In this document: positions 26,753 through 53,343 of the stretch, piece by piece
Layout: each line of letters starts with the position of its first letter
Numbering within the stretch: the first letter of the stretch is position 1
IMG/VR virus record: IMGVR_UViG_3300025872_000040
Coordinates: 1 to 64,000 of that record
Reading direction: 5' to 3' (one strand)
DNA from: a virus
Length of the DNA: 64,000 bases
Translations under genes and position numbers: made by a program
The notes under the pieces: generated by a model
Database searches by the model: none
Told to the model about the DNA's origin: nothing
Seen by the model: the letters and a program-made list of their open reading frames with translations, nothing else

Positions 26753-26760
26753 TATTTATC
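26753..26760 (-). promoter_or_regulatory. T4-type late promoter, GATAAATA, for the glycosyltransferase gene
   Basis: On the minus strand GATAAATATC lies about 50 bases before the glycosyltransferase start. It faces the plus-strand TATAAATA with a 9-base gap, so the two predicted start sites are only a few bases apart. Confidence 0.65.
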
Positions 26761-37200: not shown

Positions 37201-40200
37201 ACTCTCGTCCCGAGCACATCGTGGAGAGTAATATCTTCAGGGTCAGACTTTGCTGTCGGCGTTAAGGCTGACGGCACCCTCTGGTCGTGGGGTGGAAACG
37301 TCAACGGTCAGCTCGGCAAGAACAGCACGGTGGGGTCACTAACGCCGGCGCAGATCATGACTGGAAGCAGCTTCACGACGGTCTCAGCTGCAGAATACAG
37401 GGCCTACGCCATATCTACGGCCGGTCAACTCTTCGCCTGGGGCTACAACAGCGCAGGAAACGCCTGGAACGACGGGAACGCTAGGTCGTCTCCGGTCCAG
37501 ATCGGCTCTAGCAGCTGGTCAGCTATCGCCTCTGGTCACAAGCACGACGTCGCTCTAACAGTCGACGGAAGTATGTACGCGTGGGGAGACAACGCTGCCG
37601 GACAGCACGGACTCAACGACGACCTCTACATTAGCAGGAGCAGTCCGACTCTGGTGGCTACTTCCATCTCGAAAGTATTCGCGGGCAACGCATGCACCTC
37701 GTACATCGACGGACTGTCTAGGTTGTTCTACGCCGGAAATGACATAGCTGGAGGAGCTGGAAGAAGTGGTCCGTTCTTTAACCCGGTCGTCGGATACATG
37801 AACGAGCCTTTCAACGAGACTCTCGGCGCCGCGGCAGGATCCTGGACCATGGTAGCCTTCGGCTACTATCCTGGCTTTGAGTCTTCTTACACTACCGCTC
37901 TAGGCGTGAAGAGCGACGGAAGTCTCTGGGCCTGGGGAAACAACAACGCTGGCACCATAGGTGACGGTACTACAGTAAACAGGTTTAGAAACCCTCAGAA
38001 GATAGGAAGTAGCAGTTGGTCGTTCGTTGCAGTAAATAACCAAGTGGCGGCGGCGATAGATACCGCCGGCCGGTTGTTTACCTGGGGTGTTAACACGGAC
38101 GGAAAGCTCGGTCAGAACAGCGTGGCGAGCAGGTCTTCTCCCGTGCAGGTGGCTGGATCTTGGAACTTCGTCGCGATAGGTCAGTCTAGCGTGGCTGCGA
38201 TTAAGACCGACAGCACACTGTGGACGTGGGGAGGTAACGCTAACGGTCAGCTCGGCGTCAGCGACACAATAAACAGGTCTTCACCCGTGCAGGTGGCGGG
38301 AGCTTGGGTCATGGTTGCCTTCTCGGGTGCTCAGTCAAACGAGTCTAAGAGCATGATCGGAATAAAGACCAACGGTCAGGTCTACACATGGGGACTGGGT
38401 TCGATCCAAAACAGCTATCTCGGAGGATCTATCGGAGCCCGAAACGAAGTCTACGGGATCGACAGGTCTTCTCCTGTATCTATAGGAGCCCCGCTGACCT
38501 ACACAGGAATAAGCGCGACCACCGTCAGCGCTTCAGACTACGGAGTGTCTCTCATAAGAATGTCCGACGGAAACTTGCTCACGTGGGGCTACGGCGGCTT
38601 CGGGAGCCATGGACACAGCGATCAAATCAACCGTTCGTGGCCTACCGTAGTCGGACAGACTCTGTCTTGGTCAGTGCTGTCGATGGGCGTAGATCACGTC
38701 GCAGCGGTTAGATCGGACGGCTCTCTCTGGTCATGGGGTCTCAACTCGGACGGAAGGTTAGGCACCAACGACACTAACAATAGGTCTTCTCCTGTACAGA
38801 TTGGCTCCTTGACTAACTGGTCAGACGTCTCTGCAGGAAACGGACACACGCTAGCGAGAAAGACAGACGGAACTCTCTGGGCTTGGGGTTCTAACGGGCA
38901 GGGAAGACTGGGAGACGGCACCACCATAAACAAGTCTTCACCGATACAGATAGGTACCAGCAGCTGGAGCGCGATCTCGGCAGGGTATACAACCTCTGCA
39001 GGAATAAGCGCGTTTAGACTGTTTGTCTGGGGTGACGACGGTTTAGGAAGACTCGGTCTCAACACTAGTAACGTTCATCAGTCTTCGCCGGTCCAACTCG
39101 GCACCAGTAGCTGGTCTGCGGTCTCTGTAGGAGAGCCGCACATGTTAGCTATAAGAACTGACGGAGCCTTGTTCGCCTGGGGAGGTGACGCTGGCTACGG
39201 TTGTCTAGGCTTAGACATCTCGACGAGCAGGTCCTCTCCGATTCAAGTCGGTACCAGCAGCTGGTCGCAGGTATCAGCCGGCTACTACGGCAGCATGGGC
39301 ATCACTACAGCCACCTCTCTATGGGCGTGGGGGTCTAACTCGCAGGGGAGACTAGGTGTTGGAGACGTTAGAAATAGGTCAGTGCCTACTCAAGTGGGAG
39401 CTCTTACTGGCTGGACGGCTCTAGGTAAAACTATTGTTACAGAGGTTAATACTGCCATCAGAGGCTCGGCGCTGTACGCGATGGGCGCAGTAGACGCTAT
39501 AACCGGAGACAGATCTTCGCCGGTCCTAGTGGGAGTAGGAGACTGGAAGAACAGCTGCACTACTCAGTACTATCATCTTGCTATCTATAATAAGACTATG
39601 ATTCTTACTGAGGGTCATGTTAACACGCCTTACGTCCTCGGAAACAACAGCACCACGACTAACTCCTGGAACACCAGTTCGCGAACGATCATGGAGGGTA
39701 CAAAGGGACACCGCGCTTACCCAGACGGCCCGTGGTCCAACAACTCTCACATGTTGTACGGTACTACTAAAGCGGTGAAGACCGACGGCACTCTATGGGC
39801 TTGGGGTGACAACTCTCTTTATCAGATTGCCACAAAAGACAACGTATCTAGATCGTCACCCACTCAGATAGGAACGGCCACGAGTTGGAGAACTACGAGC
39901 GTGGCGGTTAGAGCTCTTGGGGCATCAATACTTGGAGAATTAGACACGACCGGAAAGGTCTGGACGTGGGGCATCGGCAACTACGCTGGCTCCATGGTGA
40001 ACCCACTCCAGTCGTTCACGCAGATCCCAGGATCTTGGTCGATGGTCTCGTACGCCAGACAGGACTACTCTACTCAGGCGGGAATCAAGACCGACGGCAC
40101 GCTATGGACTTGGGGCTACGGCCAGTCCGGCTCGACAGGTCTCGGAAGCACCACCGCTAGGTCGTCTCCGACACAGGTCGGAACCAAGAACGACTGGACC

Positions 40201-41931
40201 TACGTGGCCTCTGGTCAGAACACAGTGATAGCCATCGGAGACTACGGTCAAGTAGTCTACGCCTGGGGTTACAGGCCGGGGGCTTTTTCTATCAATAGCA
40301 CCTCTTCTCCAGTAGCGCTGTTCGCGCCTAACTTCTCGGCTAAAGAGCTCGCTCCGAGCATGCTCGGCTCACACACGATGGTGCTGTCGACTGCCGGGTC
40401 TCTCTACGCCATCGGCGCTGGAAAGGACGGAGCGTTCGGAGACGGACTGACTACTACGTCGGCGTACGTTCCGATCAAGATAGACAACGGCACCTGGAAG
40501 AAGATAGCCACGGGCAACTCGCACACGCTCGGTCTAAAGACTGACAGCACTCTGTGGGCATGGGGCCTTAACACGTCGGGACAGCTGGGGATACAGGACG
40601 CTACAACGAGAAGTTCTCCGGTACAGGTCATGGCTGGAAAGAGCTTCACTGCGATAAGTGCCGGAGCGACTGGTTTCTCGCAAGTCATCGATCAGAACGG
40701 AATCATGTGGGGATTCGGTTTACCTACCAACGGCGTGCTCGGCATATCATCAACGGTCTCAAATAGATCAATGCCGGTAACCGTCGGTGAAGACTGGTCT
40801 ATCATTTCTACGGGAGGGTCGCACACGGCGGCGATAGACAGTGAAGGAGGTCTTTGGGTCTGGGGAACAAACTCATTTGGTTCACTCGGCGTTAATGACA
40901 CCATCGCTAGAAACGTAGTGACTAAGATTGGTACTTCTAGTTGGGTGTTCGTCACTTGCGCAGTCAACAGTACTATGGGAATCACCGCCGACGGCAAGCT
41001 TTATGCTTGGGGAAGGAACAGTAACGCAAACCTCGGCGTCGGAGACACGCTAGATAGGTCGTCGCCTGTACAAGTCACGAGCAGCGTCAGCAGCTGGAAG
41101 TTCGTAAGCACTATGGACGACGTGTCGTTTGGAATCGCGTCAGATGGAACTCTCTGGTCGTGGGGATCTGGAGCTAAGGGAACTCTTGGAGACGGAAGTG
41201 CTACTCTTACTAGATCCGCCCCGAACCAGATCTCGACAAGCAACTGGACAGTAGTTCGATCTTCGTATGGAAGTAGCAACAACGGCTACGGAATCACTGC
41301 CAGCGGAGACCTGTACGCTTGGGGCAACGGAGCCGGCGGAGCTATACCTCTCAACGCTTCTACAGGAGACAGGTCATATCCAACTCTTATATCTAGCGGG
41401 TGGTGGGCTAACGTCAACGCTCTTGCAGCACCGAACAACGGCGTCGGAGTGGCCATCAAGTCAGATCGTACTCTCTGGGTGTGGGGCTCACCAAACAACG
41501 TTGCTGTACTCGGCCTGAACAGCGCGACCAACAACAGAAGCTCGCCGACTCAGATTGGAACGAGTTCGTGGTCTGCAGTCACCGGTCAGCTGACTCAGGT
41601 AGCGGCTATCGACGTCGACGGTCGTCTGTTCATGTGGGGGGCAAACGCAAGCGGCATACTAGGAAACAACGATACACTTACTAGGTCGTCACCGACTCAG
41701 GTCACGGGTTCACTTAGCTACACGATGGTTACAATCGCAGCCGCGTACACGCACGGAATACAAGCAGTCACAAAAGACAGGTACTACTGGGGAGCCTCTA
41801 ATGCTGCGTATAGCGGACTTGGTACCGGTATAGCAAGAAGCAACCCAACGTTCGTTGCAGAGGGAAAGATAGGAAGCTGGACAGCAGTAAACGCAGGGTA
41901 CGACTCGGTTCTTGCCACGAAGACCGTATAA
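34219..41931 (+). CDS. Giant RCC1-repeat beta-propeller protein, predicted fibre adhesin
   Basis: The 2570-residue protein consists almost wholly of RCC1-type repeats of about 45-60 residues: SDGSLWAWGVNSSGQLG, RSSPVQIGTSSWTSVDAG, then HTVGLKSDG. By length that is roughly 45-55 blades, enough for about seven propellers; I did not count each. There is no signal peptide; the N-terminus is MLIFQSLLAPAATSSPVVV. Bacterial and phage RCC1-like repeats occur in secreted binding proteins, whereas the eukaryotic RCC1 exchange activity is not expected here. The gene follows the chaperone-like gene by 10 bases and has a 787-residue paralogue at 48338. No strong Shine-Dalgarno precedes the ATG. A host-contact role is inferred from context. 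Confidence 0.85.
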   Translation: MLIFQSLLAPAATSSPVVVTPYPLYGWGVNTTGKLGINNNTTQSYPVQVLSGTSWKSFSTAFNHSLGVKSDGTLWAWGGNASGELGINVKSGRRTSLDKFDNSSWTMIKTDNQHTVGLKSDGSLWAWGVNSSGQLGTNDVVTRSSPVQIGTSSWTSVDAGANFTVALKVGGTLWAWGLGTGGQLGISAATSRSSPTQVGALTTWSKVSAGSAAVIASTSDNYAYVWGTGLMQAANDGFVLVRSSPVAVAFQPFDGALSAAGIFQSTILIDKQYRLWAWGGNTYSGLAPGILGTNDTFDRSSPVLVSSTGSWTMISGKSNSFAAIKSDGSLWTWGYNAQGQLGTGDTKNRSSPTQIGTSSWSMVSTGTYFMAAININGQVFCWGSGGQGSLGNNAAIDRSSPVQLASTSSFNVVSVGNFHALARTINNKLWAWGINNYGQLGASLGVTAARSSPVAIGTTTSWTAISAGSDHSAGITSAGSLWTWGSNGLGALGNSSTINRSSPIQVGAATTWTKVEGGVDYTLAMTESAGTATVYHFGQNAGRAGNGTTATTSSPVAVYTTAGTPKLITSFSGGSTYIISPDDTIIGTGENVLYSLALVDSPLANTTVWKIVGHSPPGTINSVAMGTVHGAVVANNKLYGLGLNDFGQLGAGTTISRSRAVLVDSSKTWSTIDTGYYASMGITSDGKLWSWGNNTQGQLGLGDIVDRSSPTQVGSSSWTVVSLSKASAGPVFAAGVTTDGKLWGWGRNYDYLPLGFLGDTAVLTNRSAPVQIGSATNWTSVSVEGQQTSSTNDALIVGVNSLGEAYWQGNGTDFAINDANRVSPVQIGTDTDWESVAAGGGVALLAHSFAIKTNKTLWSWGSNYWGNLGLGLANNVDRSSPTQVTAGPTNGSWSAVAGGYNFDYGIDTSGKLWAWGYNYTGGGLGLGVGDVTNYTAPQLVTKQRSFTLASAPYVAGGGNFGATVIDSLNNEAWSWGGGTSGVTGLGVTTTYYSPTLVPSTSWRVISSGSDFAVGVKADGTLWSWGGNVNGQLGKNSTVGSLTPAQIMTGSSFTTVSAAEYRAYAISTAGQLFAWGYNSAGNAWNDGNARSSPVQIGSSSWSAIASGHKHDVALTVDGSMYAWGDNAAGQHGLNDDLYISRSSPTLVATSISKVFAGNACTSYIDGLSRLFYAGNDIAGGAGRSGPFFNPVVGYMNEPFNETLGAAAGSWTMVAFGYYPGFESSYTTALGVKSDGSLWAWGNNNAGTIGDGTTVNRFRNPQKIGSSSWSFVAVNNQVAAAIDTAGRLFTWGVNTDGKLGQNSVASRSSPVQVAGSWNFVAIGQSSVAAIKTDSTLWTWGGNANGQLGVSDTINRSSPVQVAGAWVMVAFSGAQSNESKSMIGIKTNGQVYTWGLGSIQNSYLGGSIGARNEVYGIDRSSPVSIGAPLTYTGISATTVSASDYGVSLIRMSDGNLLTWGYGGFGSHGHSDQINRSWPTVVGQTLSWSVLSMGVDHVAAVRSDGSLWSWGLNSDGRLGTNDTNNRSSPVQIGSLTNWSDVSAGNGHTLARKTDGTLWAWGSNGQGRLGDGTTINKSSPIQIGTSSWSAISAGYTTSAGISAFRLFVWGDDGLGRLGLNTSNVHQSSPVQLGTSSWSAVSVGEPHMLAIRTDGALFAWGGDAGYGCLGLDISTSRSSPIQVGTSSWSQVSAGYYGSMGITTATSLWAWGSNSQGRLGVGDVRNRSVPTQVGALTGWTALGKTIVTEVNTAIRGSALYAMGAVDAITGDRSSPVLVGVGDWKNSCTTQYYHLAIYNKTMILTEGHVNTPYVLGNNSTTTNSWNTSSRTIMEGTKGHRAYPDGPWSNNSHMLYGTTKAVKTDGTLWAWGDNSLYQIATKDNVSRSSPTQIGTATSWRTTSVAVRALGASILGELDTTGKVWTWGIGNYAGSMVNPLQSFTQIPGSWSMVSYARQDYSTQAGIKTDGTLWTWGYGQSGSTGLGSTTARSSPTQVGTKNDWTYVASGQNTVIAIGDYGQVVYAWGYRPGAFSINSTSSPVALFAPNFSAKELAPSMLGSHTMVLSTAGSLYAIGAGKDGAFGDGLTTTSAYVPIKIDNGTWKKIATGNSHTLGLKTDSTLWAWGLNTSGQLGIQDATTRSSPVQVMAGKSFTAISAGATGFSQVIDQNGIMWGFGLPTNGVLGISSTVSNRSMPVTVGEDWSIISTGGSHTAAIDSEGGLWVWGTNSFGSLGVNDTIARNVVTKIGTSSWVFVTCAVNSTMGITADGKLYAWGRNSNANLGVGDTLDRSSPVQVTSSVSSWKFVSTMDDVSFGIASDGTLWSWGSGAKGTLGDGSATLTRSAPNQISTSNWTVVRSSYGSSNNGYGITASGDLYAWGNGAGGAIPLNASTGDRSYPTLISSGWWANVNALAAPNNGVGVAIKSDRTLWVWGSPNNVAVLGLNSATNNRSSPTQIGTSSWSAVTGQLTQVAAIDVDGRLFMWGANASGILGNNDTLTRSSPTQVTGSLSYTMVTIAAAYTHGIQAVTKDRYYWGASNAAYSGLGTGIARSNPTFVAEGKIGSWTAVNAGYDSVLATKTV

Positions 41932-41937
41932 TAAATA
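41930..41937 (+). promoter_or_regulatory. Late promoter AATAAATA for the GT9-methyltransferase/GT25 pair
   Basis: The box overlaps the stop of the RCC1 gene, 42 bases before the preferred ATG at 41972. A transcript from here would start after an alternative upstream ATG at 41912, which supports the shorter gene model. Confidence 0.5.
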
Positions 41938-41971
41938 CACGCGAGTCGTAATTCTACAACATGGAGTAGAC

Positions 41972-43705
41972 ATGCACAAGATTGACATGCAACTGAAGCT
42001 TATGCTCGACGGAAGGTTCGACGAGGCTTGGCAACTCTCAGAGGAGATGCAGGCGATCGGGCCAGAGAACCTCCTCGATGCGCGCGGTCAAAAGAACCCA
42101 GAGATGTGGGTCAGACACAGCTTCAACCGAGGCTGGTTCCTCCTTCAGCAGAACAAGTACAAAGAGGGGTGCCAGCTCCTTGAGAACGGTCGCTTCATCA
42201 AGGTCTACGGCAGCCCACCGATGAAGACTACGGCTCCTCTCTTCAACCCAGAGGAGCACGACGTCAAGGGTAAGTCGATAATCATCTCGCTCGAGGGAGG
42301 ATACGGCGACGAGATGATCCACGCTCGCTTCGCTACTTCGTTCAAGAACCTCGGCGCGGAGAACGTCTACCTCGCGGCGGACCCGTCGCTTCACTCTATC
42401 TTAGAGCGCATAGACGGCGTGACCAAGTGCATAACGCGAGCCGAGGCGCACACGGTTCACCACGACTACTGGCTTCCTGGCTTCTCGGCGGGGTGGTTGT
42501 CTGGTCATACGTTCGACGACTTCCCTGGAAAACCTTACCTCACCGCGAAGCCAGAGTCGGTCGATATGTGGAAGAGCGTCCTCAACTCTGACAAGAAGAA
42601 GGTCGGCATCCGCTGGGCAGGCAACCCGAAGTTCGAGCACCAGCAGTTCAGGCGCTTCCCAGAGAAGTTCATGACCCAGATGTCAGAGTACGAGGGCCTG
42701 CAGCTCTACTCCCTCCAGAGAGACAACAACGTTATCGAGCTTCCCGAGAAGATCATCGACCTCCAGCACCTACTGATCTCGTGGGAGGACACCGCCGCGG
42801 CGATCATGAACCTAGACCTAGTGATCACCTCATGTACCTCAGTGGCGCATCTCTCTGCAGCTTTGGGCAAGGAGACGTGGGTGATGGTGCCGATCCTCCC
42901 CTACCACACCTGGACACTGAACGCTCCGTACTCGACTTCCTCACCTTACTACGAGAGCGTCAGACTCTATCGACAAGAGAAGAAGAGCGAGTGGAACCAA
43001 CCGTTTCAGCGTCTCTACGCAGACCTCGAGAGAAAGTTTGACCTTCCTCACCTAGACCTCCCTACACAAGACAAGGAGGTCAAAAGGTTAAACCTCGGGT
43101 GCGGCTTCAAGAAGCACGAAGGATTCGTTAACGTCGACGCCTCGAGCATATGCTCACCGGATCAGGTCGTAGACCTCAACAGCAAGACGTGGCCGTGGAA
43201 GGACGACGAGTTCAGTCACGTCATAGCCAAGGACATCCTTGAGCACCTCGGTCACTCCGGCGTCAAGTTTGAGGACATCATCAAGGAGATGTACAGGGTC
43301 TCTGACAACGGGGCAGTCTGGGAGGTTCAGTTCCCTCACTGGAACTGCGACATAGCCAAGTCAGACCCGGAGCACGTTCGACTGCTGACCATCGACACCT
43401 TCAAGCTCTTCGACAAGAAGCGTTGCTACGAGAAGGCTGTGGCTGGTGAGACCGACTCGTACCACGCTTTCACGCACGACGTGGACATCGAGGTTCTCGA
43501 GCACGCGCTGGAGTTCACCGGTGAGCTGCAGAAGATGATAGACTCCGGACAGATAGGTGAGGGTGAGCTCGAGCACGCCATCAACCACCTGAACAACACG
43601 GTGCTGTCAGTGAAGCTTCTCATTCAGGTCCACAAGCCTGGAAGACACGACCGTCAGGAGTTGGACCGCGAGCTAAGGAAGGCAGCCCTCCATGGATCTA
43701 TCTAA
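41972..43705 (+). CDS. TPR-GT9-like glycosyltransferase fused to a SAM methyltransferase
   Basis: From ATG 41972 (preceded by GGAG) the protein has 577 residues; an in-frame ATG at 41912 lies inside the RCC1 gene and lacks a ribosome site. Residues 1-85 are helical and TPR-like. Residues about 90-340 match the GT9/TPR-linked GT-B family: SIIISLEGGYGDEMIHARF, VGIRWAGNP near 210, IDLQHLLISWEDTAAAIMNL, then TSCTSVAHLSAALGKETW near 287. GT9 includes ADP-heptose heptosyltransferases. Residues from about 370 are a class I methyltransferase (KRLNLGCGFKKHEGFVNVD; VIAKDILEHLGHSG). It lies between a giant RCC1 gene and a GT25 gene, and a heptose-type pathway is encoded 8 kb away. Acceptor unknown; fibre proteins are the obvious candidates. 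Confidence 0.8.
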   Translation: MHKIDMQLKLMLDGRFDEAWQLSEEMQAIGPENLLDARGQKNPEMWVRHSFNRGWFLLQQNKYKEGCQLLENGRFIKVYGSPPMKTTAPLFNPEEHDVKGKSIIISLEGGYGDEMIHARFATSFKNLGAENVYLAADPSLHSILERIDGVTKCITRAEAHTVHHDYWLPGFSAGWLSGHTFDDFPGKPYLTAKPESVDMWKSVLNSDKKKVGIRWAGNPKFEHQQFRRFPEKFMTQMSEYEGLQLYSLQRDNNVIELPEKIIDLQHLLISWEDTAAAIMNLDLVITSCTSVAHLSAALGKETWVMVPILPYHTWTLNAPYSTSSPYYESVRLYRQEKKSEWNQPFQRLYADLERKFDLPHLDLPTQDKEVKRLNLGCGFKKHEGFVNVDASSICSPDQVVDLNSKTWPWKDDEFSHVIAKDILEHLGHSGVKFEDIIKEMYRVSDNGAVWEVQFPHWNCDIAKSDPEHVRLLTIDTFKLFDKKRCYEKAVAGETDSYHAFTHDVDIEVLEHALEFTGELQKMIDSGQIGEGELEHAINHLNNTVLSVKLLIQVHKPGRHDRQELDRELRKAALHGSI

Positions 43706-44399
43706 GTCTCTAAACTTCGGGTATGATACCTCGGTAGAGTCAGCCTACATCATCACGATCAAAGACCACTCCGAGTCAGAGAGACTAGCCAAGGGATGTC
43801 AGCGATCTTGCGACATAGCCGGCATGCCGTGGAAGACATGGGACGCCTTCGACGCTACCGACGGCAAGACCATAAAGATACCTGAGCACTCTAAAGACTC
43901 GTCGTGGCTGAAGTGGGTGAAGGTGTACGATCATCACCTATCAATCACCGAGATAGCATGCTTCTTCAGCCACGCTAGCCTCTGGGCGAGGTGTCTCGAG
44001 ATGGACAGGCCGATAGTCATCCTCGAGCACGACGCCATCATGGTCCAGCGCTACCCTCACATGACTGCCTACAACAGCATCGTGTACCTCGGGGGAGAGG
44101 AGCAGAAGAACCACAGGATGCCGGTAGGTCCCGTGCCGCCTCACGGCTCCCTCAACAACAACTATCACTTCATCTGCAGGGCGCACGCCTACGCCATAGA
44201 CCCACCGATGGCCAAGAACCTGCTCGGCACCCTGATCCAGAGGGGCATATGCGAGAGTCTAGACGTCATCATGAGGGCGGACCTCTTCAACATCAGTCAG
44301 GCAGGCCTGTACGCCTACGACAGGTTCGAGGGTACTACGATCGTTAATAGAAAGAAAGACGTCAGCCTCAAGGACGAGAACGTGGGCAATGAGCGGTAG
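43692..44399 (+). CDS. GT25-family glycosyltransferase
   Basis: The 235-residue protein fits GT25 (LPS beta-galactosyltransferase/procollagen galactosyltransferase family). It opens with SAYIITIKDHSESERLAKGC and has a WDAFDATDGKT element. ITEIACFFSHASLWARCLEM is followed by IVILEHDAIM, where most members have E-D-D-A. The His in place of the first Asp is a notable change in the presumed metal site. The C-terminal part (AHAYAIDPPMAKNLL) fits the family. The start overlaps the preceding gene by 14 bases and has AAGGAAGG upstream. It lies 52 bases before the second collagen-like fibre gene. Donor and acceptor cannot be told from sequence. Confidence 0.8.
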   Translation: MDLSKSLNFGYDTSVESAYIITIKDHSESERLAKGCQRSCDIAGMPWKTWDAFDATDGKTIKIPEHSKDSSWLKWVKVYDHHLSITEIACFFSHASLWARCLEMDRPIVILEHDAIMVQRYPHMTAYNSIVYLGGEEQKNHRMPVGPVPPHGSLNNNYHFICRAHAYAIDPPMAKNLLGTLIQRGICESLDVIMRADLFNISQAGLYAYDRFEGTTIVNRKKDVSLKDENVGNER

Positions 44400-44451: not shown

Positions 44452-47400
44452 ATGGCCGATACTATCTGGGACTACAGCGGTTCAGTACAGGAGCTGATCG
44501 ATCTCTACAACAGCTGGTCTACTCTTCCACTCGAGGAGCAGGCAGCCAAGGAGGGAACTCGGTTTCTTATCACTGGTGACGGCTTTACTAACGGGGCCGG
44601 AGCTTGGTTTGACTGGGGGCTAGACGGCGGTATCATATGGGTCTACAGTATCACACCGTCTTGGTGGGTCTGGTATAATAATGAAAAGGTAACCACGTCA
44701 CCGTTTGGTTCCACTCTACCAGGATACGCAGCTGACGTAGTCTATATGCTTAATGCAGTCGGTCTACCCGGCTCAACTTCGGCATTTCCTTCTAACACCC
44801 CCCGCTACAGCTTCTGGGGAGAAGCCAGAGTACAAGGATATACCGGTTCACGCGGCATGATCGGCTACACTGGTACGATCGGCTTCGCAGGATCTATCGG
44901 TTATGCCGGCTCTCGAGGCTACACTGGCTCGTCAGGCTACACCGGGTCCGCATCTACTTTCCCAGGATACACCGGATCTCAGGGCTACACCGGATCTGCA
45001 ATCGTCGGCTCTCGCGGTTACACCGGGTCTGCGTCTACGGTCATCGGCTACACTGGAAGCATTGGGTACACCGGCTCCAAGGGTGTACAGGGCATTCAAG
45101 GAAACACCGGTTATACCGGATCCGAGGGTCCTCCCAACGGCTACACCGGCTCTAGAGGTAGCACCGGCTACACTGGCTCGGTTGGATACTCTGGAAGCCT
45201 AGGCTACACTGGATCGAGAGGACTGACTGGATTCTCCGGATCTGGCTTCGCCGGCTCTCAGGGATACACTGGCTCACTCGGCTACACGGGCTCACAGGGC
45301 TACAGCGGCTCTGCCGGATTCACCGGATCGGCGTCGACTGCTCCGGGATACACCGGATCTATCGGATACACGGGTTCAGCTGGTTACACCGGCAGCAGGG
45401 GTCTAACAGGCATACAAGGAGACCAAGGTCTTGCTGGCTACACCGGTTCGGTAGGAGAGTCGCTGCAGCCGGACGAGGTCGGACCTCTCTCTGGCAGAAG
45501 TGCTTACGACACTCAAGCTAAAGGATTCGCGTACCTAGCGACCGACACCGACTCCATCTACTATAAGCTCAGCGCTACTTCTGGCGACTGGTCAGACCCT
45601 ATAGCTCTCCTTCGCGGATTCACTGGGTCGCAGGGCTTCACTGGATCTTTTGGATTCACCGGCTCAGTCGGGTTCGTAGGGTCTCTCGGCTACACTGGTA
45701 GCATCGGCTACACTGGATCGATAGGCTACACTGGATCGCAGGGCTTCACCGGGTCTAAGGGATTCACCGGCTCCGCGTCTGAGATTCCTGGTTACAGCGG
45801 TTCTCGCGGCTTCACCGGCTCGGTAGGCTTCGTAGGATCTCAGGGCGTTCAAGGATGGACTGGCTCGCAAGGTCCGCCGGACGGATACACCGGTTCTAGA
45901 GGTTACACCGGCTCACTGGGGTCTCTTGGCTACACCGGCAGCATCGGCTACACCGGATCTCAAGGCATCCGCGGCTACACGGGTTCAGTAGGTTTCGTAG
46001 GTTCTGCCAGCACGACGCCAGGGTACACCGGCTCGAAGGGCGACTCTGGCTACACCGGATCCAAGGGAGACATAGGCTACACCGGTTACACCGGCTCTAA
46101 GGGTGACCCAGACGGATACACTGGATCTACCGGAGCTCAGGGATACACCGGCTCGCGCGGCTTCGGCTACTCCGGAGTTGCTAGCTCGACCAACATAAAC
46201 GCCTCAGGTACTGGTAACAAGACCTGGGTGATGAACCAGTCCTACACGCAGAACGCTTTCGAGCCTGGAATGCGCGTCAGGATGATATGCGTCGACGACC
46301 CGAACGTCTCGAACGAGGGTAACATCGTCAGCTACGTCGGAACCAACTTGACCATCTCGGTCGACGCGGTCGACGGCGCAGGATTCCAGAACAACTGGAT
46401 ACTCGCTGCTACGGGACGCGTCGGATACCTAGGCTACTCAGGATCTAGGGGCTACACCGGCTCGGTAGGATTTACCGGCTCGGTAGGCTTCGTCGGATCG
46501 GTCGGATTCGCTGGGTCTAGGGGATACACCGGATCGCAGGGTGACATCGGTTACACCGGATCTGCCTCTACCGTCGCCGGCCCTCTCGGCTACACGGGCT
46601 CACAGGGCTACAGCGGGTCGAGGGGCGACACCGGAGCTACCGGCTTCGTAGGGTCTCAAGGTGACCTAGGCTACACCGGCTCTCGCGGCTTCGGTGGAAG
46701 TCAGGGTTACGCTGGATCGCGCGGCTTCACTGGATCGATAGGCGACACGGGCTACACCGGATCCGCCTCGTCGACTCCAGGGTACACCGGCTCACTTGGC
46801 TATACCGGGTCTAGAGGATACAACGGAAGCCAGGGCGACATAGGCTACACCGGCAGCCTAGGCTACACGGGATCTCAGGGACCGATCGGCTACGTCGGAT
46901 CTGCTTCTACCGAGATAGGTCCTACGGGATACACCGGTAGCATCGGTTACACTGGATCGAGAGGCTACGCTGGATCGATCGGTGATACTGGATTCACCGG
47001 CTCGTTCGGAACGACAGGCTACACCGGATCGTTTGGGTTTACCGGATCGAAGGGCGACATCGGGTACTCAGGATCTGCGTCTACCGTTCCTGGTTATACG
47101 GGAAGTCTGGGTTACACTGGATCGCAAGGAGACATCGGCTACACCGGTTCAGCCTCTACTGTAGCTGGACCTACTGGTTACTCCGGCTCACAGGGTGACA
47201 TCGGTTACACTGGATCTAAAGGATTCACCGGATCGTTCGGTAACACCGGCTACACCGGCTCTGCTGGTGCGGGATTTACCGGCTCGCAGGGTGACACAGG
47301 CTTCACTGGATCGGGTGGATACACCGGATCGTTCGGATACACCGGGTCGGCTGGATCATTCGTCGTACCAGGTACGAACACACAGGTAGTGTTCAACGAC

Positions 47401-47811
47401 GGCGGTAACGCTAACACCGCGGCTACCTTCGTGTACGACAAGACCAACGGCAGGGTCGGTGTGGGAACTGCCTCGCCGGCGGCCACGATCGACGTGACCG
47501 GAAACTATGGCATGAACATCGTCACTGTCACTGCGTCGGACATCGACTGCTCTCAGGGCAACTACTTCACTAAGACTGCATCTGGAGCTCTGACGTGGAC
47601 CTTCTCTAACGTACCGGCTTCTAGGGCGGTGCTCGTGATCCTCGAGCTCACCAACGGTGGCACCGGAACTCAGACCTGGCCGGCGTCTGTTAAGTGGCCA
47701 GGTGGAACGGCACCAGTTCTAACGGTGTCTGGAGTAGACGTCATAACGTTCCTAACTGACGACAGCGGCACGACGTGGCGCGGTAACCCGACCATGTTGG
47801 ACAGCAAGTAA
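44452..47811 (+). CDS. Second collagen-like tail fibre
   Basis: The 1119-residue protein has a unique N-terminal domain of about 130 residues (DTIWDYSGSVQELIDLYNSW; Trp-rich). Gly-X-Y repeats of the GYTGSRG/GYTGSAS type follow. Two inserted domains, GPLSGRSAYDTQAKGFAYLA and GYSGVASSTNINASGTGNKT, each have a counterpart in the fibre at 26790. The C-terminal domain (NTQVVFNDGGN; SQGNYFTKTASGALTWTFSN; FLTDDSGTTWRG) is also shared. Many repeats here are broken by SASTxxGYTGS segments, which interrupt the Gly-X-Y phase. The C1q-like domain of the larger fibre is absent. It is followed in order by a chaperone-like and an RCC1 gene, repeating the first cassette. Confidence 0.85.
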   Translation: MADTIWDYSGSVQELIDLYNSWSTLPLEEQAAKEGTRFLITGDGFTNGAGAWFDWGLDGGIIWVYSITPSWWVWYNNEKVTTSPFGSTLPGYAADVVYMLNAVGLPGSTSAFPSNTPRYSFWGEARVQGYTGSRGMIGYTGTIGFAGSIGYAGSRGYTGSSGYTGSASTFPGYTGSQGYTGSAIVGSRGYTGSASTVIGYTGSIGYTGSKGVQGIQGNTGYTGSEGPPNGYTGSRGSTGYTGSVGYSGSLGYTGSRGLTGFSGSGFAGSQGYTGSLGYTGSQGYSGSAGFTGSASTAPGYTGSIGYTGSAGYTGSRGLTGIQGDQGLAGYTGSVGESLQPDEVGPLSGRSAYDTQAKGFAYLATDTDSIYYKLSATSGDWSDPIALLRGFTGSQGFTGSFGFTGSVGFVGSLGYTGSIGYTGSIGYTGSQGFTGSKGFTGSASEIPGYSGSRGFTGSVGFVGSQGVQGWTGSQGPPDGYTGSRGYTGSLGSLGYTGSIGYTGSQGIRGYTGSVGFVGSASTTPGYTGSKGDSGYTGSKGDIGYTGYTGSKGDPDGYTGSTGAQGYTGSRGFGYSGVASSTNINASGTGNKTWVMNQSYTQNAFEPGMRVRMICVDDPNVSNEGNIVSYVGTNLTISVDAVDGAGFQNNWILAATGRVGYLGYSGSRGYTGSVGFTGSVGFVGSVGFAGSRGYTGSQGDIGYTGSASTVAGPLGYTGSQGYSGSRGDTGATGFVGSQGDLGYTGSRGFGGSQGYAGSRGFTGSIGDTGYTGSASSTPGYTGSLGYTGSRGYNGSQGDIGYTGSLGYTGSQGPIGYVGSASTEIGPTGYTGSIGYTGSRGYAGSIGDTGFTGSFGTTGYTGSFGFTGSKGDIGYSGSASTVPGYTGSLGYTGSQGDIGYTGSASTVAGPTGYSGSQGDIGYTGSKGFTGSFGNTGYTGSAGAGFTGSQGDTGFTGSGGYTGSFGYTGSAGSFVVPGTNTQVVFNDGGNANTAATFVYDKTNGRVGVGTASPAATIDVTGNYGMNIVTVTASDIDCSQGNYFTKTASGALTWTFSNVPASRAVLVILELTNGGTGTQTWPASVKWPGGTAPVLTVSGVDVITFLTDDSGTTWRGNPTMLDSK
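44833..47360 (+). repeat. Gly-X-Y collagen-like coding repeats (second fibre)
   Basis: Degenerate in-frame units like those of the first fibre, with more frequent interruptions (SAST-type breaks) and two folded-domain inserts. Confidence 0.9.
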
Positions 47812-48337: not shown

Positions 48338-50701
48338 ATGCTGATCCTTGGCTCAGGAATTATGAGAAAGAAAGTTCAGAGTGACTCTCTGTTCGGGGCC
48401 GGCTATAGTACTTGGTATAGTCTCGGAAACAGCTTTGATGGTGCTAGAAGCTCTCCAGTCGCGGTGACTGCAGCCGGAAACCCTCTGATCTACAAGTCTT
48501 GGAAGACTGTTACTGGAACTAACGGAAACACCGCGGCGTTAAACAGCGTCGGAGAGCTCTACGTCTGGGGTGACAATAACTTTGGACAGTGGGGAAACAA
48601 GACTGCAGGAAATACGAGTCTAGCTCAGCCTGGATTTGACAGAGCGACGCATAGGTCTAGCCCTACGCTGGTTCCCTCTACAGGAAGTTGGACAGTAATT
48701 TCTGTCGGAGGTTACTCGGGGGAAGAGTATAGAGAAGTATGCAATACTGGAATCTACGACCCTAGCGCTCACGTTGCAGGGATCAAGTCAGACGGGACTC
48801 TCTGGACCTGGGGTTACGGGATCTACGGTAAGCTTGGAGCTGGAAACACTTTTAGCAGGTCTTCTCCTACTCAGCTTGGAACTAAGACTGACTGGGTAGA
48901 CGTTGCGTGCGGACCGGAGTTTACGATAGCGTGCGACTCTGCGGGTGACTTGTACGCGTGGGGACACAACTACAGAGGTCAGCTCGGTGACGGAACTACT
49001 ATCGACAGGTCTTCACCGGTCCTCGTGTCCTCAGTTAGAAACTACACCAAGGTCTACGCATCTGGGATGAAGTCGTTCGCAGTCGACGACACTAATCAGT
49101 TGTACTGGGCAGGAGCCGGAGCGAACGCTACATCCCTTGGATACTATCCGACATCAATCGACTCATTGACTCACTCGTCAGTAACCCTTGGAAACAACTT
49201 CTCTAGCGGTTCGATGGGTCCTCAGCACGGTCTGTTCATAAAGACTACCGGCGCTCTATACGCGGCTGGAATCAACGACTACGGGCAGCTTGGTCTCAAC
49301 GACACTTTCAGCAGGTCGAGCTTTGTTCAAGTAGGAGCTGGAACCAACTGGTCAACCGTTATAGTGTCAGCCAGCCACACGCTAGCTCTCAACAACACCG
49401 GGTCTCTGTTCGTCTGGGGAAGAAATAACTACGGACAGCTTGGACTCGGCGACGTCGTGAACAGGTCTTCTCCGACTCTTCTGTCCACCGGCGTCTCTTA
49501 CGTAATGGCTGCTGGATATAACACCTTCTACGTTAAGACCGACGGTACCCTGTGGGCCGTCGGAACCGAGAGATCTGGTCAGCTAGGTAATCAAGACTTA
49601 CTGCTTGACTTTGACACACCACACATCAACAGATCTTCTCCGATTCAGATAGGCTCCGGATTCACGTCTAACATCTTTGGAAAGTCTAACTATCGCGGGG
49701 CTGGAGCTAAGAGCTATATAAACGACGGAAAGCTCTACATGTGGGGTGTCAACGGATACGCGGCTGCGGACGACAACGCTACGAGTTGGACACCATACAA
49801 AAACTTCTGGCTTATGGAGACGAACAGACTCTTCACCAAGGTGCCCGGATCATGGAGTGCTGTATCCATGGGAACTGAGTACGCAGTAGCTATCAAGTCA
49901 GATGGGACCCTATGGTCTTGGGGATCTAATGCATCTTATGGACAGCTTGGAATCAACCTTACTAGCGCAGCAGGAAACAACGGCAGAAGCATACCAGTTC
50001 TAGTATCAAGCGACACGACCTGGAAGAAAGTTCAGGCTGGATTTGGCGGAGCTCTAGCTCTAAAGGGAGCTAGCAGCCCATACAGCCTCTACGGCTGGGG
50101 ATACTACTACATCACGGGTCAGAACAGTTCTATAAACAGAAGCTCTCCGGTGATCATTGGAGCGGCAAACAACTGGAAAGACATAGGCTTCAGTGAGAAT
50201 AGTCTGACGGTCTACGCCGTGGATAAGAACGACAACATCTACGTGTGGGGATACAACAACGTAGGACAGCTAGGCTTAAGCGACACGATCGATCGCTTCA
50301 GTCCTGTGCTACTTGCTACAGGTCAAGCAGGGGCAAAGGTGCAGGCCGGACAGGATCACGGACATATAATTAAGTCCGACGGCTCGCTGTGGTCCACTGG
50401 AAGCAGCGCCTACGGACAGACCGCTCTCGGCTACACTAACGTTTCTAGCTTCACTCAGGTCGGAAGCTCCTCTTGGACAGCGGTAAGCGCCGGCCAGCAA
50501 CACTCTCTAGGCATAGACGCGGCTGGTCGCCTTTTTGCCTGGGGAAGAAACAACTACGGGCAGCTGATGGGTCCGTCTCCAAACATTATCACCTACACGT
50601 ACTCGACGGTTCAAGTCGGGTCTGGCGCTTACGGAAGTTGGACTCTCGTTCGTGCAGCGAGAGACAGCTCGTTCGCCTCAGCTAAGGTAGACATTACTTA
50701 A
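48338..50701 (+). CDS. RCC1-repeat beta-propeller protein, shorter paralogue
   Basis: The 787-residue protein has RCC1-type repeats through most of its length (SDGTLWTWGYGIYGKLG, RSSPTQLGTKTDWVDVACG, SAGDLYAWGHNYRGQLGDG). By length that is about 14-16 blades, or two propellers. The N-terminus MLILGSGIMRKKVQS parallels the MLIFQSLLA start of the giant copy. Its stop overlaps the stop of the convergent HldD-like gene by 8 bases, and no terminator hairpin is evident there. The leader ends in AACAGATGCT with no strong ribosome site, similar to the giant copy (CAGATGCT). Confidence 0.85.
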   Translation: MLILGSGIMRKKVQSDSLFGAGYSTWYSLGNSFDGARSSPVAVTAAGNPLIYKSWKTVTGTNGNTAALNSVGELYVWGDNNFGQWGNKTAGNTSLAQPGFDRATHRSSPTLVPSTGSWTVISVGGYSGEEYREVCNTGIYDPSAHVAGIKSDGTLWTWGYGIYGKLGAGNTFSRSSPTQLGTKTDWVDVACGPEFTIACDSAGDLYAWGHNYRGQLGDGTTIDRSSPVLVSSVRNYTKVYASGMKSFAVDDTNQLYWAGAGANATSLGYYPTSIDSLTHSSVTLGNNFSSGSMGPQHGLFIKTTGALYAAGINDYGQLGLNDTFSRSSFVQVGAGTNWSTVIVSASHTLALNNTGSLFVWGRNNYGQLGLGDVVNRSSPTLLSTGVSYVMAAGYNTFYVKTDGTLWAVGTERSGQLGNQDLLLDFDTPHINRSSPIQIGSGFTSNIFGKSNYRGAGAKSYINDGKLYMWGVNGYAAADDNATSWTPYKNFWLMETNRLFTKVPGSWSAVSMGTEYAVAIKSDGTLWSWGSNASYGQLGINLTSAAGNNGRSIPVLVSSDTTWKKVQAGFGGALALKGASSPYSLYGWGYYYITGQNSSINRSSPVIIGAANNWKDIGFSENSLTVYAVDKNDNIYVWGYNNVGQLGLSDTIDRFSPVLLATGQAGAKVQAGQDHGHIIKSDGSLWSTGSSAYGQTALGYTNVSSFTQVGSSSWTAVSAGQQHSLGIDAAGRLFAWGRNNYGQLMGPSPNIITYTYSTVQVGSGAYGSWTLVRAARDSSFASAKVDIT

Positions 50702-51473
50702 TCAAGTCGTTGTAGTTGTACTGCGCGCTCGTGAAGTACTGATACTTTCCCTGTAGCTTCAAGGGAAACTTGATTCTCTCTATTCTAGCGCCGGTCCTGC
50801 TAGCTATCGACTCAGCCACCTCTGTGAAGCTCTTAGGCGCAGCAGTACCTACGTCGTAGATTCCTGACTCTTTCTTGCACTCTAGGATAGTCTTCACGAC
50901 GCTGTTGACATGTATAAAGTCACGGTGAGCGCTGTCAGAGTTGTCGAAGATCTTTATGACTCTTGTCTCGTTCGCCTGCTGCATGAACTTGTAGTATGGA
51001 CTCGCCTGCTCCCCCTTCGACCCCTCGTTGTCACCGTACACATTGAAAAACCTCATCCCCCTCACGAGCTTGAACCTGCTCATGTTGTCCTCGACCCAGG
51101 CGTCGACGGTAGCCTTGGTCATGGCGTAGTAGTTAAGCGGGTTTATCCTGTACTGCTTTCCCTCACATGTGTTGCCATAGACCGACCCAGAGCTCGCGTA
51201 TGTGACCGGGATCTGGTAGTCGATCGCCTTCTCAAAGAGCCTGATGCTGAAGTCCACGTTGTGCGCGTGCAAGAGGTTAATGTCCTTGCAGGTCGTGTCT
51301 GATATTGCTCCGAGGTGATAGATCTCGTCGACGTTCTCCCACTCTATCGCGTCTAGGATGGTAAAGATGTCTGGGAGAGTGTTCGTCAGCGTGTCGTAGC
51401 AGGCGACCTGACCGTCAAGCTTTGCCAGCAGGTTCCTTCCAATGAATCCACAGTTACCGGTGACAAACTTCAT
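50694..51473 (-). CDS. hldD: ADP-glyceromanno-heptose 6-epimerase-like (HldD-type) SDR enzyme
   Basis: The 259-residue extended SDR protein has the nucleotide-binding GNCGFIG at 6-12, a YASS element near 92-95 and the YxxxK pair Tyr116/Lys120. Several segments match HldD closely: IYHLGAISDTT, RFFNVYGDNEGSKGEQAS, HRDFIHVNSV, GIYDVGTAAPKSFTEVAE and FPLKLQGKYQYFTSAQ. HldD (about 310 residues in E. coli) converts ADP-D,D-heptose to ADP-L,D-heptose. This version is shorter, mainly between the binding loop and the active site and at the C-terminus. It is last in a leftward four-gene operon and overlaps the preceding gene by 20 bases. A closely related nucleotide-sugar epimerase activity remains possible. 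Confidence 0.82.
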   Translation of the reverse strand: MKFVTGNCGFIGRNLLAKLDGQVACYDTLTNTLPDIFTILDAIEWENVDEIYHLGAISDTTCKDINLLHAHNVDFSIRLFEKAIDYQIPVTYASSGSVYGNTCEGKQYRINPLNYYAMTKATVDAWVEDNMSRFKLVRGMRFFNVYGDNEGSKGEQASPYYKFMQQANETRVIKIFDNSDSAHRDFIHVNSVVKTILECKKESGIYDVGTAAPKSFTEVAESIASRTGARIERIKFPLKLQGKYQYFTSAQYNYNDLIK

Positions 51474-51789
51474 CTTGGTTGATCTCCCTGTGAGGACCGG
51501 TGAAGTACAGGTCTGCGTTCATGGCCTTGTCGTCTATCCACACGTCGTACGACGGCTTCTTCATCTTCAAGCTAGTGTACCTGCAGCCCCACTCGTGAAG
51601 CTGTCTCTCGGTCAGTTCGCTCCAGTCGATACCAGAGTTTCCGCCGCGCGCGGTCCAGTAGTGGATCTCGTGACCCCAGTCGTACAGCATGTTGAAGTGG
51701 TTGATCCTATCCTTGATGGGCTCGCTCCTCGTGTAGTCAGACCCCTTGGTCCTGCATATGGTCCCGTCGATGTCGACCATGTACCTCAT
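51454..51789 (-). CDS. Small HAD-superfamily phosphatase
   Basis: The 111-residue protein carries the HAD motif I YMVDIDGTICRT, a motif II-like HYWTARGG, and a motif III/IV region KMKKPSYDVWIDDKAMN. It is a capless or minimally capped HAD of the type found in sugar and capsule clusters. In ADP-heptose synthesis a HAD enzyme (GmhB) removes the C7 phosphate between the kinase and adenylyltransferase steps. This protein is well placed for that step, but it is much shorter than GmhB and lacks its zinc loop, so the role is only a suggestion. It overlaps the cupin gene by 4 bases (ATGA). Confidence 0.75.
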   Translation of the reverse strand: MRYMVDIDGTICRTKGSDYTRSEPIKDRINHFNMLYDWGHEIHYWTARGGNSGIDWSELTERQLHEWGCRYTSLKMKKPSYDVWIDDKAMNADLYFTGPHREINQDEVCHR

Positions 51790-52145
51790 CGCTGAGAGTC
51801 TCCTGGCATCACGCGGTAGTTGTCGGCCGGATCGTCCTGACTTGACACCTCGAAGATGGAGGAGTCGTCCTCTAGAGCCTCGAGCTGGTGAACGAAGCCT
51901 GGCATCACACGCACCACGTGACCCATGACGATAGTCTCTTCTTTGATCTGGGCTGTAGACTGGTCTATGGTTCTAAGGTTGAAAGACCCAGTCACCACCA
52001 TGAAGGTCTCGTCCTTCTTCATGTGATAGTGCATGCTTCCCTTTGAGCCCGCCTTGTCAAACTGAAGTATCTTACCACAGTACAGCTCGTTTGAGGCAAA
52101 TATGATCTCTCTTCCCCATCCTTTTTCTACCGTCTGTCTACTCAT
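51786..52145 (-). CDS. Single-domain cupin, possible sugar isomerase or regulator
   Basis: The 119-residue protein is a single cupin barrel. Metal ligands look intact: His39 and His41 (MHYHMKKDE) with Glu46, and His86 in GFVHQLEA. The opening VEKGWGREIIFASNELYCGK resembles mannose-6-phosphate isomerase-like cupins often seen with nucleotide-sugar genes in phages. It overlaps the HldE-like gene by 8 bases and the HAD gene by 4, so the operon is translationally coupled. Substrate unknown. It could replace a missing isomerase (GmhA is absent from the window), but that is speculation. Confidence 0.7.
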   Translation of the reverse strand: MSRQTVEKGWGREIIFASNELYCGKILQFDKAGSKGSMHYHMKKDETFMVVTGSFNLRTIDQSTAQIKEETIVMGHVVRVMPGFVHQLEALEDDSSIFEVSSQDDPADNYRVMPGDSQR

Positions 52146-53307
52146 TTCTCATCTTCTCCACGATGTCAGTAGTCGAGAAACCCTCGACGAGTGGTATGAT
52201 TATAACTTCAGCTAGATCGTTGCCTACTACGGTAGACACCTGATAGTCGCCTCCCTTGGTGATGATTGACGGCTGTACGCTCTTGATTAGCTCGAGCGGA
52301 GTGTCCTCATCGAAGATGATCACCTCGTCGACCCACTTGATCGCCTCGAGTGCGGCCTTCCTAGACTCCTGGTCATTGATGGGTCTGCACATTCCTTTAA
52401 GCCTGCGAACGCTCTCGTCGCTGTTGATCCCCACTACGAGTCTGTCTCCCATGTCGCGAGACTTCTTAAGTAACTCGATGTGCCCACGGTGCAGGATGTC
52501 GAAGCAGCCGTTGGTGAAGACTACCTTAGGACGCGCCTTAGCTATGTCCTCGGCAGTAAGCTTGTACGTGCCGAAGCGAGTGACTGATATCGTGGCCAGG
52601 GTGGTGGCCTGATGAAGCGCCGTGGCGAGATCCTTTCCTGCAGCCAGAGCTGATACCATTCCGGCAGTCACCACGTCTCCCGCTCCAGTGACGTCGGCCA
52701 CCTCTACCTTCTCGGTCGGGAAGTGTCCAACTGACCCGTCCTTGCTATAGGTGTATATTCCGTCGGATCCAGCCGTCACCACTAGGTTCTCGATGTCATA
52801 GTACTTTAAGACGTCGAGTGCCTCATAACCCTCGACGCCACTCTTCTTGAGTTCCTGCTTGTTCATCTTGACCATCCAGGCTCCGGAGCACTCTTGCAGG
52901 ACTCCCTTGGTATCTACGATAACGCGACTCCCTCTCTCGCTGTAGTACTCGATCAGATCTTCTACTGAAGTGATTGTGCCCTTTAGATAGTCTACCAAGA
53001 CGACGTAGTCGTAGTGCTTGTCAGACTTAAATGAGCTTGTCGGGTGACTGTCGGTGGCGTCGTCGTCACACCTGAAGACTATCTTGTTGTCGCAGACGTA
53101 CCGAGTCTTAAACGAGGTGCTACCCGTCATGATGTCGGGTCTACACCCTAGAGCCTTGAGGTTCTCGTATACGTTGTATACCCCTCCAGACTTACTGGTC
53201 TCTCTGATCTGATAGAAGATTGGGATAGGAGCCTCGGCAGAGACCCTCTCGGTTCCACAGTAGACGTATCGGTCTAGTATGGCGTCTCCGATCACTAGAA
53301 CATTCAT
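52138..53307 (-). CDS. hldE: HldE-like bifunctional sugar-phosphate kinase/adenylyltransferase
   Basis: From ATG 53307 the protein has 389 residues; AAGGTGAG lies 5 bases upstream, and the GTG at 53316 is part of that ribosome site. Residues 1-250 are a PfkB/ribokinase-type kinase with the DVTGAGD signature at 205-211. Residues 260-389 are a nucleotidyltransferase with TNGCFDILHRGH (HxGH 273-276), NSDESVRRLKG and ITKGGDYQ. The order and motifs are those of HldE, which phosphorylates heptose-7-phosphate at C1 and adenylylates heptose-1-phosphate. The kinase part is about 65-70 residues shorter than in E. coli HldE. It is first in the operon, ahead of cupin, HAD and HldD-like genes. Confidence 0.85.
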   Translation of the reverse strand: MNVLVIGDAILDRYVYCGTERVSAEAPIPIFYQIRETSKSGGVYNVYENLKALGCRPDIMTGSTSFKTRYVCDNKIVFRCDDDATDSHPTSSFKSDKHYDYVVLVDYLKGTITSVEDLIEYYSERGSRVIVDTKGVLQECSGAWMVKMNKQELKKSGVEGYEALDVLKYYDIENLVVTAGSDGIYTYSKDGSVGHFPTEKVEVADVTGAGDVVTAGMVSALAAGKDLATALHQATTLATISVTRFGTYKLTAEDIAKARPKVVFTNGCFDILHRGHIELLKKSRDMGDRLVVGINSDESVRRLKGMCRPINDQESRKAALEAIKWVDEVIIFDEDTPLELIKSVQPSIITKGGDYQVSTVVGNDLAEVIIIPLVEGFSTTDIVEKMRNE

Positions 53308-53318
53308 GTCGCTCACCT

Positions 53319-53326
53319 TATAAATA
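53319..53326 (+). promoter_or_regulatory. T4-type late promoter, TATAAATA, for the neck/terminase genes
   Basis: A perfect box preceded by CT lies 45 bases before the gp13 ATG, in the divergent gap. It very likely drives gp13-gp17. Confidence 0.75.
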
Positions 53327-53335
53327 CCACGGATC

Positions 53336-53343
53336 TATTTATC
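53336..53343 (-). promoter_or_regulatory. Late promoter GATAAATA for the heptose-type operon
   Basis: On the minus strand the box lies about 36 bases before the HldE-like ATG and faces the plus-strand TATAAATA with a 9-base gap. This is the same geometry as at 26736-26760. Confidence 0.65.

Follow-up and report, generated by a model that had tools for sequence, protein, structure and literature searches.

Within a 64,000-nucleotide stretch of viral DNA, referred to here as the window (positions 1 to 64,000 of the 117,822-base IMG/VR record IMGVR_UViG_3300025872_000040), a four-gene operon may, with a probability we place just above even, be expressed late and make ADP-L-glycero-beta-D-manno-heptose without GmhA. 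The classical ADP-heptose pathway comprises GmhA, HldE, GmhB and HldD, of which GmhA is the first enzyme. ADP-heptose, a precursor unit of bacterial surface sugars, is itself a very probable product of the operon. The viral operon encodes a fused HldE-like kinase/nucleotidyltransferase, a cupin, a small HAD phosphatase and an HldD-like epimerase; we infer the enzymatic steps, the product and the use of the product from these sequences. The four overlapping leftward genes, and the motifs quoted for them in a preliminary description of the window, are all present: they occupy the minus strand at 50694-53307 (to 53316 with an alternative GTG start) and overlap by 4-20 nt. For the HldE-like gene the ATG at 53307 is the probable start, rather than the GTG at 53316, because AAGGTGAG lies just upstream. 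All four genes are under strong purifying selection, with ratios of non-synonymous to synonymous substitution (dN/dS) of 0.063 (HldE), 0.056 (cupin), 0.072 (HAD) and 0.039 (HldD) against L002, a relative with 84-95% amino-acid identity to the window proteins. These low values indicate that the genes are not chance open frames.

The HldE- and HldD-type identity proposed in the preliminary description is borne out by profile, alignment and structural comparisons. In NCBIfam the HldE-like protein matches PRK11316 at 2.6e-83; its kinase half matches rfaE_dom_I at 5e-49 (next family 7e-17), and its nucleotidyltransferase half matches rfaE_dom_II at 1.4e-51 (next 2e-16, besides a generic domain model at 2e-19). 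The HldD-like protein matches TIGR02197, and its best solved relatives are structures of E. coli HldD (1eq2/2x6t). The margin of the HldE and HldD models over all other specific families is roughly 30 orders of magnitude or more, placing both proteins far ahead of other sugar kinase, nucleotidyltransferase, cytidylyltransferase and short-chain dehydrogenase/reductase (SDR) families; neither protein grouped with non-heptose families. Against the HldD model, generic SDRs from five bacterial genomes score no higher than 143 bits, compared with 187 for the window protein and 234-238 for two viral relatives. Alignment to the E. coli enzymes shows that the catalytic residues are kept: GDxxLDRY, RxSxEAPxP, DVTGAGD, NGCFDILHxGH and KGGDY are common to both HldE proteins, and Y116/K120 and K153 of the HldD-like protein, invariant in 8 phages, align with the YGYSK and HKG residues of E. 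coli HldD, whose epimerase lysine is K178.

The heptose-pathway reading of the preliminary description thus stands for HldE and HldD, although it did not ask where heptose-7-phosphate comes from. GmhA (SIS_2) was found in none of 12 records (the window's record, two near relatives and nine complete cyanophages), and in none of 50 viral contigs that carry the cupin, contigs of up to 253 kb; control bacterial genomes do give a SIS_2 match. The likely stand-in is the cupin, which is a core part of the cassette and most likely fills the GmhA step as a putative sugar-phosphate isomerase. At least 578 relatives of this cupin were confirmed, and its metal-binding tetrad (H39, H41, E46 and H86, an HxH...E...H site) is invariant throughout a set of 78 relatives. 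The structure model (pLDDT 95.6) retrieves an archaeal phosphomannose isomerase (7zvy) and D-lyxose isomerases in Foldseek; these cupin sugar isomerases (7zvy/7zvm; 2y0o, 7nzo) share the barrel and the HxH...E...H site with the window cupin, at only about 20% identity. Phosphomannose isomerase and the D-lyxose isomerases convert a ketose to a manno-aldose, the same chemistry as from sedoheptulose-7-phosphate to heptose-7-phosphate. We know of no cupin with activity on sedoheptulose-7-phosphate, and a literature search returned no relevant paper on one; the GmhA-free anatomy of the cassette likewise appears unreported. In RefSeq cyanophages the same family (phrog_7851, e.g. L007:9426-9782) is annotated 'cysteine dioxygenase', a label that is doubtful because the cupin co-occurs with sugar enzymes and resembles a sugar cupin.

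For HldE and HldD this co-occurrence is close to constant. Among 80 viral cupin loci, both HldE domains lie within 4 kb in 74, and fused HldE together with HldD in 64; in a second, independently chosen set of 80 viral loci, ordered by their likeness to E. coli HldE under an E. coli-led profile, 66 carry the cupin, one carries GmhA (L190, which has no cupin) and none carries both, all these counts being drawn from fragmentary contigs, from relatives that are not independent and from two sets that overlap. The phosphatase in the 80 cupin loci is a GmhB homologue in 27 and a small HAD in nine, with none recognised in the rest, and for two of the GmhB homologues the top-scoring model is that of the beta-heptose 7-phosphatase (1e-39 to 1e-41). 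That the phosphatase swaps between small HAD and GmhB suits a role of the small HAD in this same reaction. All 35 cupin matches in cultured phages are from cyanophages or marine single-cell viruses. A bacterial test case, L039, carries HldE, a GDP-mannose dehydratase-like gene and the cupin, with no clear GmhA in the genome; it is suggestive, but it comes from a metagenome-assembled genome (MAG) and has no clear HldD. Two further MAG bins, assigned to Rhodobacteraceae and Euryarchaeota (L038, L040), contain a cyanophage-style cassette that is probably viral contamination. Elsewhere, a Nudix-like gene lies directly upstream of HldE in some viral cassettes (L044, L046, L054, L068), and several viral cassettes adjoin very large structural genes.

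The small HAD is proposed, by analogy, to be a heptose-1,7-bisphosphate 7-phosphatase of non-GmhB type. The preliminary description was right in the kind of phosphatase, and GmhB identity did not hold: the protein matches phrog_1238 and 9iqw rather than GmhB models, with the GmhB structure 2gmw reaching only E 0.06, and we rejected GmhB orthology. Among solved proteins it lies closest, by both structure and sequence, to AfhF, a phage D-arabinose-1,5-diphosphate phosphatase (PDB 9iqw; 31% identity, TM-score 0.74 by query), and it shares a small HAD family with the arabinosylation genes of RB69-type phages. Taken literally, the RefSeq label of phrog_1238, 'phosphoheptose isomerase', was also rejected, the protein being a small HAD by its DxD/T/K/DD motifs. 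The same mislabel occurs on many phages, including RB69 (27774-28058), P-SSM2 (PSSM2_311) and many coliphages.

The preliminary description regarded the co-occurrence of HldE and HldD in a phage as striking; it is not new, since cyanophage cassettes of T4-GC 304-308 have long been known. T4-GC 304, 305, 307 and 308 co-occur, and whether such lipopolysaccharide (LPS) genes work was left open (Sullivan et al. 2010, PMC3037559); SynMITS9220M01 also carries heptose-related LPS genes (PMC7378029). The T4-GC 304/305/306/307/308 cassette clusters the same five functions as the window (nucleotidyltransferase, kinase, small HAD, cupin and HldD-like), which occur together in P-SSM2, S-SSM7, S-SM2, S-CAM1, S-CAM3, P-TIM68 and Sf-FS3, whereas S-T4 and Sf-CH8 have the cassette without a nearby HldD. 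Cyanophage cassettes often adjoin gp13 and fibre genes, as does that of the window. The window differs from these cyanophage cassettes in having the kinase and nucleotidyltransferase fused in bacterial order and the four genes on one strand; in addition, the cupin precedes the HAD and no carbamoyltransferase is adjacent. In a tree of 78 HldD sequences the window falls within a 15-row clade (support 98) with all seven sampled cyanophages and with fused-HldE viruses, its long end branch making its exact place unsure. The window operon represents a variant arrangement of the cassette already known from cyanophages.

In the pathway we propose, sedoheptulose-7-phosphate would be drawn from the host Calvin/pentose-phosphate pool and converted by the cupin to D-glycero-D-manno-heptose-7-phosphate. 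By homology, the N-terminal domain of HldE would then form the 1,7-bisphosphate; the small HAD would remove the 7-phosphate, by analogy with GmhB and AfhF; the C-terminal domain of HldE would add AMP; and the HldD-like enzyme would invert C6, the latter two steps again by homology. Phage glycosyltransferases would probably attach the sugar either to a surface glycan or to the virion. The E. coli pathway and the window share HldE and HldD homologues, catalytic residues and a phosphatase for the bisphosphate step; the window differs in having no GmhA, a phosphatase other than GmhB, and shortened HldE and HldD that fall under curated cut-offs. Should the cupin prove to be the isomerase, the ADP-heptose pathway would have a second, unrelated class of enzyme at its entry, and viruses whose hosts reportedly have heptose-free LPS would carry everything needed to make ADP-heptose. 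Many aquatic viruses have the cassette, yet its best-known label, 'phosphoheptose isomerase', belongs to the phosphatase. The role of phage 'LPS genes', a question since the first P-SSM2 genome, can now be reduced to direct enzyme and mass-spectrometry tests.

Beyond the limits on the locus counts given above, several observations weigh against this GmhA-free pathway. The HldE-like protein lies under the curated equivalog cut-offs (280/521, 167/345 and 174/181.5 bits), as does the HldD-like protein (186.8 bits against 274.6); both are shorter than in E. coli (about 390 versus 477 residues for HldE, 259 versus 310 for HldD), which partly explains the low scores. The substrate of the nearest solved relative of the HAD is a pentose bisphosphate. 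The cupin fold is generic and cannot alone decide function: matches to oxalate decarboxylase, quercetinase, CapF and KdgF are equally good or better. Two soil-bacterial relatives of the cupin (L023, L024) lie beside another phosphatase with no HldE, indicating that the family is not heptose-only. Finally, host GmhA could supply heptose-7-phosphate. ADP-heptose would then still be made, with the cupin acting as a tailoring enzyme (an epimerase or oxidase) on the sugar or nucleotide sugar. The presence of the CapF cupin of capsule sugar synthesis among the closest Foldseek matches, and the promiscuity of the cupin fold, are consistent with such a role, but the cupin tracks HldE/HldD across phages whose gene contents differ widely, and the single viral HldE locus with GmhA has no cupin. 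Moreover, the LPS of marine Synechococcus is reported to contain no heptose (PMC4515613), which makes host supply doubtful for cyanophages. We consider a tailoring cupin alongside host GmhA rather improbable.

Less probable again is that the product is another nucleotide sugar, such as an activated pentose of the kind associated with arabinosylating T4-like phages, serving to modify DNA or the surface. RB69 ORF051c-type proteins belong, like 9iqw, to the small HAD family, two cyanophages lack HldD near the set, and the cassette resembles the isomerase, epimerase, sugar kinase and NTP-transferase logic proposed for arabinose phages (PMC13390438). An HldD-type 6-epimerase, however, has no role in a pentose pathway, and late timing is ill-suited to DNA modification. 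RB69-type coliphages do not appear as a group when the 113 phage HldE matches are tallied by organism, and none has the cupin, whereas the HAD search recovered 173 Escherichia phages; many viral cassettes also carry a beta-heptose-type GmhB instead of the small HAD. Functionless passenger or 'stuffer' DNA, an explanation considered for large cyanophage LPS clusters (PMC3037559), was rejected given dN/dS of 0.04-0.07 for all four genes; the operon's own late motif and the conservation of linkage over very diverse phages also make this account exceedingly improbable.

For ADP-heptose made by the GmhA-free route, the reportedly heptose-free LPS of marine Synechococcus makes plain supply to the LPS core a less evident purpose; a new surface glycan, or the virion, is the favoured destination. 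Fibre glycosylation, alteration of host LPS and supply of a signalling metabolite, as suggested in the preliminary description, are all candidate uses. That the sugar serves to glycosylate the virion, specifically a collagen-like fibre, rather than to remodel host LPS is a tentative and somewhat doubtful suggestion. It accords with the late promoter, and with the position of a GT25 gene and a weakly GT9-like methyltransferase gene immediately upstream of the collagen-like fibre gene; cyanophage cassettes also occur with 2-oxoglutarate oxygenases, a carbamoyltransferase and a GT9-like protein beside fibre genes. GT25 and GT9 enzymes are, however, also LPS glycosyltransferases, and other cyanophages keep the cassette within glycan clusters. 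Within the window, assignment to GT9 is itself weak: likeness in the 597-residue methyltransferase comes from hhalign at a probability of 20%, and Pfam and PDB searches with this protein upstream of GT25 found no GT9. The same GT25/methyltransferase pair lies beside gp13 in L216 and L217, which are near-identical over this stretch, and in the 172-kb genome of L217 (G070) the nucleotidyltransferase, kinase, cupin and HldD genes are clustered elsewhere. The combination of a cupin-type sedoheptulose-7-phosphate isomerase, a late GmhA-free pathway and GT25/GT9-like transfer to collagen-like fibres in marine T4-like phages is, taken whole, unlikely. An unannotated cyanophage protein, T4-GC 302 (L006:5174-6313, L007:5072-6184, L011:5160-6299), lies beside the carbamoyltransferase and heptose genes; against the Pfam GT9 heptosyltransferase family it scores 22.0 bits in S-CAM1, exactly the cut-off, and more weakly in three others.

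The preliminary description took the sugar to be made late from the position of the operon in the structural region. This placement is correct: the operon lies between tail-fibre genes and a flank that carries gp13, gp14 and terminase. The operon runs in the opposite direction to the surrounding structural genes, so position alone is no proof of late expression; the minus-strand late motif upstream suggests that the operon is probably late-expressed despite its orientation. The cyanophage late motif is NATAAATA, with the core ATAAATA (PMC2984593), and a test for NATAAATA located it just upstream of the operon on the correct strand. ATAAATA occurs at 14 sites in the window compared with 4.3 expected, and ten of these precede a gene start by 12-92 nt. 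The minus strand has just two sites, one for each of its only two units in the window: the first is 26 nt upstream of the HldE GTG start and the second 49 nt upstream of the other unit. Opposite each of them, at a distance of 16 bases, is a plus-strand late motif. The relatives L001 and L002 retain the operon's motif. For the cassette in general, the motif was unsupported as a feature (8 of 163 loci, with 3.8 expected). The sole other minus-strand unit (23255-26710) encodes a 1151-residue protein that combines GT1/GT4-type and GT2 domains with an FkbM methyltransferase domain, and has the same divergent late-motif pair (26737 on the plus strand; 26753-26759 on the minus strand).

Table 1. Coordinates of the operon, its late motifs and the possible sugar-using genes in the window.
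Feature	Coordinates	Strand	Evidence or remarks
HldE-like fused kinase/nucleotidyltransferase (PfkB and HxGH domains)	52138..53316	-	PRK11316, rfaE_dom_I and rfaE_dom_II matches
Metal-binding cupin, putative isomerase, 119 aa	51786..52145	-	Invariant metal ligands; fold model; linkage
Small capless HAD phosphatase	51454..51789	-	phrog_1238, 3.7e-26; DxD, T46, K78 and DD motifs
HldD-like ADP-glycero-manno-heptose 6-epimerase, trimmed, 259 aa	50694..51473	-	TIGR02197, 5.4e-55
T4-type late-promoter motif ATAAATA	53336..53342	-	26 nt upstream of GTG (35 nt from ATG 53307)
Divergent late motif ATAAATA for gp13	53320..53326	+	gp13 start at 53364
Methyltransferase with weak GT9-like N-terminal part, possible sugar user	41912..43705	+	phrog_6636, 1.3e-15; overlaps GT25 gene
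GT25 glycosyltransferase, possible sugar user	43692..44399	+	PF01755, 2.3e-14; 52 nt upstream of collagen-like fibre gene
Collagen-like tail fibre, GYT/GSx triplet-rich, speculative acceptor	44452..47811	+	PF01391, 2.4e-82

The virus carries T4-like structural genes and a terminase with 55% identity to those of cyanophages, suggesting a T4-like, cyanophage-related virus akin to the T4-like phages that infect cyanobacteria of the ocean. The 118-kb record contains no psbA, so the likely cyanobacterial host is suggested only by terminase similarity. The tail-fibre region also encodes large RCC1/beta-propeller-repeat proteins on the plus strand, of 2570 residues (34219-41931) and 787 residues (48338-50701), and the gene for the latter directly abuts the heptose operon.

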